This document shows, in pieces, positions 15,878 to 20,553 of a DNA stretch of 64,000 bases; the stretch's first letter is position 1; every line of letters begins with the position of its first letter. The notes under the pieces were generated by a model, which saw nothing but the letters and a program-made list of their open reading frames with translations, did not search any database and was not told where the DNA came from. This DNA comes from Ferrovibrio sp. Lineage in GTDB: Bacteria; Pseudomonadota; Alphaproteobacteria; Ferrovibrionales; Ferrovibrionaceae. The stretch lies in NCBI RefSeq assembly GCF_019636075.1, contig NZ_JAHBYG010000016.1, positions 1 through 64,000 of the forward strand, in the 5' to 3' direction. Both the position numbers and the translations under genes were made by a program.

Positions 15878-18433
15878 CTAGTCGGCATGCCGGCTGAGAA
15901 ACCAGCGTTTCACCTGTTCCGCGATCACCAGATAGACAGCGCTGACACCCAGCAGGCTGAGCAGAATCTGCGGCGGCAGAGGCACGAAGCCGAACCATGC
16001 AGCCAGTGGCGTATACGGCAGCAATATGGCCAGGGCCACTATGCCGAGGGAACACGCCATCAGTGCGGGATGCGGCCAACTCTGCCAAGGCCGCCCACGC
16101 GTGCGAATCACGAAAATCACCAGCACCTGGGTCATCAGCGATTCCACGAACCAACTGGTTTGAAACAAGCTCTCGCCGGCCTTGAATATCCACAATAGCA
16201 ATCCGAAGGTGAGAAAATCGAATAGCGAACTCACCGATCCCAGCACCAACATGAAATTGCGCACAAAAGCCATGTCCCAATGGCGCGGCTGGGTGATCAT
16301 CGCATCATCCACCTTATCGAGCGGAATGGCGATTTCGGATGCGTCGTAAAGCAGATTGTTGAGGAGAATCTGGATTGGCAGCATCGGCAGAAAGGGCAGT
16401 AGAATCACCGCTCCGGCCATGGAGAACATGTTGCCGAAATTGGAACTGGTGCCCATCATCACGTATTTCATGATGTTGGAAAATGTGCGCCTGCCTTCGC
16501 GCACACCCTCGGCCAGCACATTCAGATCCTGCTTCAGCAGAATCATAGCGGCGGCTTCCTTGGCCACATCCACGGCATCTTGCACCGAAAGCCCCACATC
16601 GGCGGCCTGCAGAGAGGGCGCATCGTTGATGCCATCGCCCAGATAGCCCACGACATGGCCGCGACGGCGCAGCGCGCGTATCACCCGGGCTTTTTGCGGT
16701 GGGGATACCCTGCAGAATAGCGTGGTATCGGCCAACCGGGCCGATAGCGCCTCGTCGGTCATTTTCTCTAACTCTGGTCCGTTTATGGCGCCGCTTACGG
16801 CAATGCCAAGCGCCGCGCAGACATGGCGCGTAACCCGTTCGTTATCGCCAGTCACCACCTTCACAGCCACCCCGAGCCCGGCCAGTGCAGCGATAGCCTC
16901 GCGTGCACTTTCCTTGGGTGGGTCGAGAAAGGCGGCAAAACCCGCGAAGGTCAGTTCGCTTTCATCGGCAATGTCGGCATGGTCGCGGTCTGGTTCCACC
17001 TCGCGCCAGGCGATGCCCAGCAGCCGGAAGCCTTCATCGCCCAGGCGTTCCAACGTGGCCAACGCGCTGGAACGGGCTGTATCATCCAGCGGTCGAGATG
17101 CATCGCTGCCTGCTTGGCGATAGGTGGATGAATGCTTCAGCACATCCTCCGGCGCGCCTTTCACAACCAGATAGCGGCGCCCTGCCTGCTCGGCCAGGAT
17201 GGATACCCGCCGCCGCTCGAAATCGAACGGCACTTCGTCGATCTTGCGCCAACCGCCAATATCGGTCGGCGCCGCTTCCATGATGGCATCATCCAGCGGG
17301 CTTTTGAGGCCGGTTTCAAAAGCGGCATTGATATAGGCCCAATGCAGTACATCGTTGTTTTTGGCGCCGGCGATGTCAACTTCGCGCACCAGTTTGATAT
17401 GCGCTTCCGTCAATGTGCCGGTCTTGTCGCTACACAACACATTCATGCTGCCGAGATCGTGGATTGCCGATAATCGCTTAACGATCACATGCTGGCGCGA
17501 CATGCGCACGGCCCCGCGCGCCAGGGTGACCGACACCACCATCGGCAGCAATTCCGGCGTGAGGCCCACGGCAAGGGCCAGAGCGAACAGGAAGGATTCG
17601 ATCAGCGGTCGATCGAACAGCAGATTGATCAGCAACACAAACAACAGCAACAGCGCGGTGATCCGCATGATCAGCAGGCCGAAATTATGAATGCCTAGAG
17701 TGAAGGCGGTCGGCTGCGGTGGCTTACGCAAGACTCCGGCAATCGCACCGATCCGGGTGCGGCGCCCGGTTGCCAAGACAATGGCTTTGGCACTGCCGCT
17801 GATCACCGAACTGCCCATGAATACTGCGTTATCCGGGGTCGCTTCATCTACCGGCGGCGATTCTGCCTTGGCATTCTTTTCCACCGGATAGGGTTCGCCG
17901 GTAAGCAGGGCTTCGTTCACGAATAGATCGCGGGCTTCCAACAGCCGGCAATCGGCAGGCACAAGATTGCCGGCTGAAAGCACCACGATATCACCGGGCG
18001 CCAGATCGGCAGCCGGAATATCTTGTACTTTGCCATCGCGCAGAGCGCGCACACTCAATGCCACGCGCTGGCGCAAGGCTGCTGCGGCGTTTTCCGCCCG
18101 ATGTTCCTGGATGAAATCGATCAGAACCGATAGGACGACGATGGTGGCGATGATGTAAAAGCTGGCTTGCTCGCCACTGATCGCGGCAATACCTGCGGCA
18201 AACAGCAGGATCAGCACCAGTGGATTGCCGAAGCGCTTCAGCAGCGCAATTGCCATTCGTTGGCTTTCGGGCGCTTCCAGCAGATTTTTACCTGTGCTGG
18301 CCAGCCGCGCCAAAGCTTCCGTTTGGCTTAGACCATCGGCGCTGCTTTGCATGAGGCCGCAGATGTCTGCCAAGGGGGCAGACCAGGCCGTTTGTGTGGG
18401 GTCTGCAAGGGTAGGGGCGTTTGGGTCGGGCAT
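15878..18433 (-). CDS. mgtA: Magnesium-translocating P-type ATPase (MgtA/MgtB type)
   Basis: An 851-residue type-III P-type ATPase of the inner membrane that imports Mg2+. Visible landmarks are the A-domain LTGEPYP, the phosphorylation motif DKTGTLTEAH around residue 333 and the hinge GDGINDAPSLQAADVG. Paired N-terminal and six C-terminal hydrophobic helices are also present. I chose the ATG at 18433; an in-frame TTG at 18481 would add 16 residues, and neither start has a strong ribosome site. No Mg2+ riboswitch structure is evident in the short leader. Confidence 0.92.
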   Translation of the reverse strand: MPDPNAPTLADPTQTAWSAPLADICGLMQSSADGLSQTEALARLASTGKNLLEAPESQRMAIALLKRFGNPLVLILLFAAGIAAISGEQASFYIIATIVVLSVLIDFIQEHRAENAAAALRQRVALSVRALRDGKVQDIPAADLAPGDIVVLSAGNLVPADCRLLEARDLFVNEALLTGEPYPVEKNAKAESPPVDEATPDNAVFMGSSVISGSAKAIVLATGRRTRIGAIAGVLRKPPQPTAFTLGIHNFGLLIMRITALLLLFVLLINLLFDRPLIESFLFALALAVGLTPELLPMVVSVTLARGAVRMSRQHVIVKRLSAIHDLGSMNVLCSDKTGTLTEAHIKLVREVDIAGAKNNDVLHWAYINAAFETGLKSPLDDAIMEAAPTDIGGWRKIDEVPFDFERRRVSILAEQAGRRYLVVKGAPEDVLKHSSTYRQAGSDASRPLDDTARSSALATLERLGDEGFRLLGIAWREVEPDRDHADIADESELTFAGFAAFLDPPKESAREAIAALAGLGVAVKVVTGDNERVTRHVCAALGIAVSGAINGPELEKMTDEALSARLADTTLFCRVSPPQKARVIRALRRRGHVVGYLGDGINDAPSLQAADVGLSVQDAVDVAKEAAAMILLKQDLNVLAEGVREGRRTFSNIMKYVMMGTSSNFGNMFSMAGAVILLPFLPMLPIQILLNNLLYDASEIAIPLDKVDDAMITQPRHWDMAFVRNFMLVLGSVSSLFDFLTFGLLLWIFKAGESLFQTSWFVESLMTQVLVIFVIRTRGRPWQSWPHPALMACSLGIVALAILLPYTPLAAWFGFVPLPPQILLSLLGVSAVYLVIAEQVKRWFLSRHAD

Positions 18434-18622
18434 GCTCAATCTGCGACCATGCGGCTTGTTGCGAACTTGAGGGAATATCAAGCGTCTTGTTCATTGATAT
18501 ACACCCGGTTCAGGGCGGGAAACAGCCCCAAATTACACAATTGAGATGATGAATTTTCTTACGGAAAGGACCAAATTCTATTGATTTGAAACAGGCGACC
18601 AGCTGCGGCAAAAATCGCGGCC

Positions 18623-18688
18623 ATGAACCGTATCACAGCTCATAACCACCCATCGCGCATGTGCTGCGCCCGAATGTGTTGCTGCTGA
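18623..18688 (+). CDS. Candidate Cys-rich leader peptide (upstream ORF)
   Basis: A 21-codon ORF. Its last nine residues are MCCARMCCC, directly before TGA: five Cys codons among the last eight. It ends 72 bp upstream of a well-initiated gene, inside an otherwise empty divergent region of 326 bp (18434-18760) between mgtA and that gene. Poly-Cys leader ORFs are known to act as attenuators for sulfur genes in actinobacteria and proteobacteria. No strong ribosome site precedes the ATG, which is the main weakness. A CCTCC stretch at 18691-18695, just after the stop, could pair with the downstream GGAGG ribosome site. Confidence 0.5.
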   Translation: MNRITAHNHPSRMCCARMCCC

Positions 18689-18734
18689 GGCCTCCCCAGA
18701 CCACGGCATCACAAGGCAAGCAGCAAGTGCATAC

Positions 18735-18749
18735 GGCCGTGCAACGGCC
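18735..18749 (+). promoter_or_regulatory. Hairpin directly upstream of the ribosome site
   Basis: GGCCG TGCAA CGGCC forms a perfect 5-bp stem that ends 1 nt before the GGAGG ribosome site (18751-18755) of the following gene. Together with the CCTCC at 18691-18695, it offers alternative pairings between the Cys leader ORF and the start region. Confidence 0.4.
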
Positions 18750-18760
18750 TGGAGGACAAA

Positions 18761-19102
18761 ATGAGTGAAGTATACGTTATTGAAACAGGTCGGCGCTTCG
18801 GCGAGCGTATTGAGGCTGGTTTGGTAAAACGCGAACGCGGCGGATTCCGTTTTTTCGCGGCCAGCGCATTATTCGCCGCCATCGAAAACAAGCTGTTTCG
18901 CCGGCCTTCGGAGGCTGAGCGTGCCGCCGAGCGGCTGCTGCATGATGTGCGCACCGGCGCTGCACAAAGCGTAACGGGCGGCGATCTGCCGGTCAGGCAT
19001 GACGAGGATGCGTATTCGCTGGTAGATCCTCTGGCATTGCCGCCCGATTGGCTGGGTGTGCCGAATGTTGTAGCGCTTTCGCTGCTGCCATTCGACCGCT
19101 GA
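18761..19102 (+). CDS. Hypothetical protein, 113 residues
   Basis: I do not recognise the family. The start is convincing: GGAGG at 18751-18755 lies 5 nt before the ATG. The protein is soluble. It has a charged N-terminal half (GRRFGERIEAGLVKRERGGFR is a basic stretch), an Ala/Glu-rich helix in the middle and a hydrophobic C-terminal PNVVALSLLPF. There is no signal peptide, Cys residue or obvious active-site motif. Its leader region carries a Cys-codon upstream ORF, which suggests control by cysteine or sulfur supply. It stands alone on the plus strand and converges on a RidA gene 13 bp away. Confidence 0.75.
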   Translation: MSEVYVIETGRRFGERIEAGLVKRERGGFRFFAASALFAAIENKLFRRPSEAERAAERLLHDVRTGAAQSVTGGDLPVRHDEDAYSLVDPLALPPDWLGVPNVVALSLLPFDR

Positions 19103-19749: not shown

Positions 19750-20553
19750 ATGTCAGATTCACCCCAGACCGACAACAAGCCCGTAGGTGCGCCGCCGAGC
19801 GCTGACCAATTCAGCTATATCACGCATCTGCAGTTGGATACGCTGCTATCGGCCATGAAGCCGATCACCCCGCACCCGGAAGAGCATATTTTCCTCACCA
19901 CCCATCACGCGCTGGAAATCTGGTTCAAGCACGTGATTTACGACCTCAAGCGCATCATTCCGATGTTGGAGGCCGACCGGTTGGCTGAGGCCAACTGGCT
20001 GCTGAAGCGCCTTGGCGAGATCATGCGGCTGGCAGACGGGCATTGGACCGTGCTGGAAACCCTGTCGTCGCCTGATTTCCATGAATTCCGGCCCTACCTT
20101 ACCGGGGCCAGTGGCATGCAGTCGCGGCAATTCCGCGAGGTTGAGGTGATATGCGGCCTCTGCGAATTGGGTGGGGAGAATTATGTCGCCAGTGTGCGCA
20201 AGGCCTGGCCTGGAATGATCGAGGCATATCCGGTCACGCTCCGGCAGGCTTTTTTCAACCTGATCAACCGTTCAGAAACCAGCCTGCTCGAAATCTACGA
20301 TAAGCGTTGGCAACATCCACAGCTTTTTGCCCTGGCTGAAAATGCCATGGAGTTGGATCGCCGGTTCCAATCCTGGCGTTTCAACCATATTTTGATGGTA
20401 CGCCGCCAGATCGGCATGCGCACCAAGGGTACTGGCGGCACCTTTGGCCGGGATTATCTCAGCGCCACCATGGGCTATCTGTTCTTCCCCGAACTTTGGG
20501 AATTGCGCCATGATATTGCCGCGTTGCATGGCGGTGAGATTGCCAAGCCGTAA
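19750..20553 (+). CDS. kynA: Tryptophan 2,3-dioxygenase
   Basis: A 267-residue heme dioxygenase that opens the indole ring of L-tryptophan to give N-formylkynurenine, the first step of the kynurenine pathway. The family stretch FLTTHHALEIWFKH (residues 48-61), the MQSRQFREVE segment and the GTGGTFGRDYL region near the end are all clear. The length is close to the usual 270-280. The ATG at 19750 is preferred; an in-frame TTG at 19717 would add 11 residues and overlap the promoter element. The partner enzymes lie about 9 kb away (kynureninase and a formamidase-like hydrolase). Confidence 0.95.
   Translation: MSDSPQTDNKPVGAPPSADQFSYITHLQLDTLLSAMKPITPHPEEHIFLTTHHALEIWFKHVIYDLKRIIPMLEADRLAEANWLLKRLGEIMRLADGHWTVLETLSSPDFHEFRPYLTGASGMQSRQFREVEVICGLCELGGENYVASVRKAWPGMIEAYPVTLRQAFFNLINRSETSLLEIYDKRWQHPQLFALAENAMELDRRFQSWRFNHILMVRRQIGMRTKGTGGTFGRDYLSATMGYLFFPELWELRHDIAALHGGEIAKP

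Follow-up and report, generated by a model that had tools for sequence, protein, structure and literature searches.

A 21-codon upstream open reading frame (uORF) that ends in a run of cysteine codons lies ahead of an orphan gene in a 64,000-nucleotide stretch of Ferrovibrio sp. DNA, hereafter the window, and judged from sequence comparison it very probably senses cysteine. The same kind of uORF, with conserved Cys codons, is found in leaders of many other alphaproteobacteria, where it is linked to an RNA motif resembling the SAM-II riboswitch and to sulfur-uptake genes. The window would thus hold a reduced and atypical member, lacking the motif and metNIQ and with an orphan gene as its target, of a widespread and apparently undescribed leader family. 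That the element works as a cysteine leader peptide, with ribosome stalling on the uORF controlling the following gene, is the explanation that we favor and consider likely.

Results

The uORF spans positions 18623–18688 of the + strand, from an ATG at 18623 to a TGA at 18686–18688, would encode the peptide MNRITAHNHPSRMCCARMCCC* and has counterparts in related leaders. Cys accounts for five of its last eight codons, arranged as a first pair (TGC TGC, 18662–18667) and a terminal triplet (TGT TGC TGC, 18677–18685) that adjoins the stop; terminal clusters of this kind are kept in relatives. Downstream, on the same strand, the leader contains CCTCC (18691–18695), a proposed anti-Shine-Dalgarno sequence, followed by GCAGCAA (18720–18726), which is the complement of the Cys codons (TTGCTGC) and, in the predicted fold, base-pairs through its GCAGC with the first Cys pair. 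A perfect 5-bp hairpin (GGCCG-TGCAA-CGGCC, 18735–18749) then stands ahead of GGAGG (18751–18755), the Shine-Dalgarno (SD) sequence of the main gene. An earlier, sequence-only reading of this DNA had pointed to the uORF, its Cys codons, CCTCC, the hairpin, GGAGG and the main-gene ATG, and all of these are confirmed at the positions given here. It had also named the missing ribosome site ahead of the uORF as its weak point, and this holds: no SD sequence precedes the uORF in the window leader. The only sigma-70-like promoter within 18430–18800 is a consensus match, TTGAAA-N18-AAAAAT (18586–18615, + strand), from which the transcript would start near the uORF ATG, and because of this predicted start the uORF is a candidate for leaderless translation, which is possible. 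No intrinsic terminator was found past the uORF, there being no + strand terminator-like site in 18430–18800, and the Rfam search of the window gave no match to RF00521 at E up to 1 and one chance miRNA match, far under threshold.

We estimated how often such an ORF is expected by chance from simulated 64-kb sequences with the dinucleotide make-up of the window, counting both strands. A stop with at least five Cys among the preceding eight codons is expected 0.017 times per 64 kb, and a stop after three Cys in a row 0.08 times. The 5-of-8 arrangement occurs once more in the window, at 17631 on the minus strand, inside the span of an ATPase gene and with no leader context. Short ORFs are common and this one lacks an SD sequence, as a fortuitous ORF might, but the expectation is just 0.017, and homologous leaders have this feature in the corresponding position, a conservation that already contradicts an accidental ORF in the window and leaves that idea hardly credible. 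Given this conservation, a chance origin of the Cys-rich uORF is, on sequence grounds, very unlikely.

All of the relatives first compared (9/9) carry, ahead of the homologue of the main gene, a short ORF with Cys codons at its end. When 71 clustered leaders were examined for Cys among the six codons before the stop, 41 contained two or more, against a mean of 1.6 (maximum 5) after shuffling and 2 in the reverse complement, and 18 contained three or more, against 0.03 and 0, respectively. The Cys codons are most frequent two to four codons ahead of the stop, with TGT and TGC both in use, and the uORF peptide outside the Cys cluster varies among relatives. The check proposed by the sequence-only reading, that Cys codons should be kept while the remaining peptide varies, thus came out in its favor in many alphaproteobacteria. 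Homologues of the main gene without a Cys-rich uORF also exist, for example L083, L213 and L219.

The main gene (18761–19102, + strand) comprises 113 codons, and comparison with its homologues places the N-terminal 60–66 residues of its product in a new small-protein family. The 113-aa product has no match in Pfam or NCBIfam, and comparisons with PDB sequences and with Foldseek returned nothing worthwhile by sequence or fold. From a 67-sequence alignment, AlphaFold2 models residues 1–66, the only confident part of the prediction, as three strands and then helices, and the remainder as a low-confidence tail. Homologues of the N-terminal domain are present in 10 of 18 family genomes (own genome counted), in 37 of the 385 sampled alphaproteobacterial genomes and, within the order around G191, which resembles Microvirga and Methylobacterium (names inferred), in 79 of 82 genomes. 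In five relatives (L006–L010) the gene is split, with the N-terminal part matched by a 66–75 aa ORF and the C-terminal ...DPLALPPDW...LSFLPFDR part carried by another; as far as the sequences indicate, the 113-aa gene of the window would be a fusion product, or the L006–L010 forms the outcome of a fission. In the window the gene is an orphan, lying between a divergent P-type ATPase gene upstream (15878–18481, minus strand) and a convergent gene of the RidA family downstream. A tryptophan 2,3-dioxygenase-like gene is found near the leader (19756–20550), and no link between the two was found. The window genome (4.0 Mb in 85 contigs) contains no NIL-domain MetN and no MetQ, metNIQ being absent, whereas metN and metQ lie downstream in most relatives of the genus.

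In most relatives the promoter region and the uORF are separated by a strongly conserved RNA of the form ATTTGA-n-GCAGCTTGCRCCGCG-n-GCTAAAGCGCCACG...CGTGG. When the loci were compared with RF00521 by cmscan, the motif aligned in half of 20 loci, with two matches above 36 bits and eight at 24–30 bits; the motif of L011 gave 26.9 bits. Matches over the curated cut-off are the motif copy of L067 and one in L052 that falls at a different place in the locus than the motif. In L052 this standard SAM_alpha match (1337–1410, 41.1 bits) lies ~165 bases upstream of the variant motif copy (about 1501), and from their positions the standard and variant forms may be arranged in tandem. Compensatory changes are seen by eye in P1 and in the CCACG hairpin, for example in L167 and L116. 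The motif of the relatives is a candidate for SAM binding. A pattern search found the motif in 31 of 385 genomes of the class (0 in the reversed control), and a model built from the leaders of the small-protein loci, R1, matched in 71 of 385; R1 is mainly a sequence model because the automatic RNAalifold structure missed P1 through register shifts.

Neither the pattern search nor R1 found a copy of the motif in the window's own genome. The best R1 match within 18300–18900 is weak (3.6 bits, E 0.26) and sits exactly upstream of the uORF, at 18568–18625 on the + strand, where ATTTGA and a 3' hairpin are kept and the conserved core is gone. This segment may be a relic of the SAM-II-like motif. 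The sequence-only account of the leader was right as to the uORF and its elements but missed the motif that usually precedes such uORFs.

The motif also led to the genes that these leaders accompany. In an R1-based scan, which depends in part on the small-protein loci from whose leaders R1 was built, the following ORF has two or more Cys among its final six codons at 33 of 93 motif places (L195 and L201, which could not be placed, are excluded), against 2.6 after shuffling (maximum 5) and 2 in the reverse complement; three or more Cys are found at 17 of the 93, against 0.1 after shuffling. A Cys-uORF is present at 28 of 39 motif places before transporters or the small protein and at 1 of 31 before metX, metY/Z, metE, metF or a siroheme gene, with 4 of 23 at other places. 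The nominal Fisher p, 1.3e-9, is descriptive only, because many of the related loci come from one genus, the classes were set post hoc and the BLAST seeds came from the same loci. The downstream neighbours that we identified are MetQ, MetN with a NIL domain, SsuA, a sulfate-binding protein (sbp), TauE, TauA and peroxiredoxin. In one genome (G014) the motif occurs three times, in each case with a Cys-uORF of its own, and the three leaders precede different operons. The link to sulfur that had been suggested from the window is supported by the relatives, in which sulfur-uptake genes repeatedly follow the downstream family, and the 113-aa protein may have a sulfur role.

Several individual loci add to this picture of the family. 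L216 and L217 have six-codon uORFs, MTCCCP and MTTCCP, after the SAM-II-like motif (near position 150, oriented to the motif), and in L211 and L212 the motif and a Cys-uORF precede a gene beginning MSKVYVIHENTEWVLPLRQAF, which gave no match in the family search and is a further candidate for a sulfur link. The order in L011 is motif, Cys-uORF, small protein and then a peroxiredoxin (Pfam AhpC-TSA and 1-cysPrx_C). In L045 and L046 a SAM-II-like motif stands before a peroxiredoxin-like gene without a Cys-rich uORF.

Other Cys-containing regulatory uORFs respond to copper, and the nascent Cys-rich peptide could in the same manner respond to a metal or to thiol-oxidising stress instead of charged tRNA-Cys, which would suit the peroxiredoxin found downstream at some loci (L011). 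However, Cys residues next to the stop would be at the peptidyl-transferase centre and could hardly reach a ligand beyond the ribosome, and the neighbours are mostly sulfur-uptake genes. We give such metal or thiol sensing only a slight probability.

We also considered how a stalled ribosome might affect the main gene. In predicted folds from the window's genus, the Cys-codon stretch CTCTGTTG pairs with the main SD region, and placing a ribosome on the last Cys codon changes the predicted SD accessibility from 0.00–0.07 to 0.33–0.53 (L003, L004, L006, L007 and L008). Across the family, native Cys/SD pairing beats that of swapped partners (p=0.0025) but is no better than pairing with composition-shuffled SD windows (p=0.47); a general rule of SD masking for the family fails on the latter comparison despite the positive swap test. 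The family-wide effect of the stall on the SD is a trend (p=0.06), and an upstream control mask does as much. Masking of the SD by Cys codons is accordingly a prediction for the window's genus only.

The pairing in the genus and the swap test would also fit a Cys run that is a by-product of RNA structure, in which UGYUGY-rich sequence is kept for pairing with the SD region or other RNA and the peptide is irrelevant. The result with shuffled SD windows argues against this, as does the retention of Cys codons in frame near the stop, through both TGT and TGC, amid differing surroundings, and we assign it a small probability. For a cysteine leader peptide in the window itself, the predicted effect of the stall on the SD depends on which Cys cluster the ribosome occupies. 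The predicted SD accessibility is 0.33 in the free leader (a shorter stretch gave 0.44) and also 0.33 with the ribosome at the stop. A footprint that covers the first Cys pair raises it to 0.82; one on the last Cys cluster lowers it to 0.20 and gives CCTCC-GGAGG pairing a probability of 0.78. The proposed CCTCC-GGAGG switch did not survive as a resting state: its pairing probability in the free window leader is 0.0, CCTCC is not conserved and the relatives compared lack the pairing.

Discussion

Under the cysteine leader peptide explanation, scarce charged tRNA-Cys would cause the ribosome to stall on the Cys codons just ahead of the stop, and the stalled ribosome would alter the RNA further on, or how far that RNA is exposed to Rho, such that expression of the following gene goes up. 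With ample charged tRNA-Cys the ribosome would reach the stop and the following gene would stay low. In the window's genus, where the Cys codons are predicted to pair with the main SD, a stalled ribosome would free the SD. We infer the translation of the uORF, its response to cysteine and the direction of that response from sequence. In most relatives the upstream SAM-II-like RNA and the uORF would together form a leader that reads SAM and cysteine and controls sulfur uptake and the small protein; in the window the cysteine half alone would remain.

Both halves have precedents. The uORFC-8-2 motif, found before cysS in Rhodobacterales, is an alphaproteobacterial uORF with tandem Cys codons, as is the one here, and ribosome stalling is predicted to let it sense charged tRNA-Cys (PMC8632094). 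It differs in that its uORF precedes cysS and is followed by an intrinsic terminator, whereas no terminator was found in the window, the targets are others and a SAM-II-like motif usually precedes the uORF of the family. In mycobacteria and other actinobacteria, polycysteine leader ORFs are likewise short, with a Cys run near the stop; they lie before sulfur genes and have no conserved terminator hairpin (PMC1262725; Canestrari et al. 2020 as cited in PMC9094748). They are leaderless in mycobacteria, which is possible in the window as well; they belong to another phylum and have other targets, and the accessible parts of these sources report no SAM-II-like partner. Rho-dependent control has been suggested for the mycobacterial Cys leaders (PMC1262725), and it is a possible output step of the present leader. 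The LEU element of actinobacterial leuA is a leader ORF whose run of regulatory codons is predicted to pair with the SD of the main gene (PMC1262725), as we predict in the window's genus; it uses leucine codons in another lineage, and SD pairing is not family-wide in the Cys leaders studied here.

The SAM-II riboswitch (RF00521) is found before methionine genes (PMC1273637, PMC9373788). The motif of the relatives shares its GAUUUGA, CUUGC and GCUAAAG blocks and its position before methionine genes, but most copies fall under the curated cut-off, the uORF follows when the targets are uptake genes and the window has no motif. For published SAM_alpha regulons, the accessible part of the source gives metY, metA, metX, hom, metC and metW, and metNIQ is not among the members named there (PMC4239095). 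Cys leader peptides and SAM-II riboswitches are each already known, but the open-licence literature, to which the search was confined, yielded no description of the two combined in one leader; subscription papers lay outside it.

With a uORF that lacks an SD sequence, a genome without metNIQ and the RNA motif, and an orphan main gene, the window copy may be decaying. Taken further, the leader family would be real and the window copy a functionless leftover after loss of the riboswitch and metNIQ, for which the missing motif core could also be cited. Yet the window retains the uORF with all five Cys codons as well as a strong GGAGG, and its 113-codon main gene is intact; we judge a functionless leftover unlikely.

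A broader reading is possible, and we put it forward tentatively. In alphaproteobacteria, a two-input leader composed of a SAM-II-like riboswitch and a Cys uORF would tune sulfur-uptake operons and the new small-protein family by SAM and charged tRNA-Cys, and the riboswitch alone would control methionine biosynthesis. The small protein would then be a sulfur-homeostasis factor that has gone unrecognised, and of the two inputs only the cysteine half would have been kept in the window genome. If this is true, many alphaproteobacteria could set their uptake of methionine, sulfate, sulfonate and taurine against the supply of SAM and cysteine. The SAM_alpha regulon would be extended by the addition of metNIQ, and an unnamed protein family would be placed in sulfur metabolism. 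A simple rule would also follow, namely that uptake genes are preceded by the uORF and biosynthesis genes are not.
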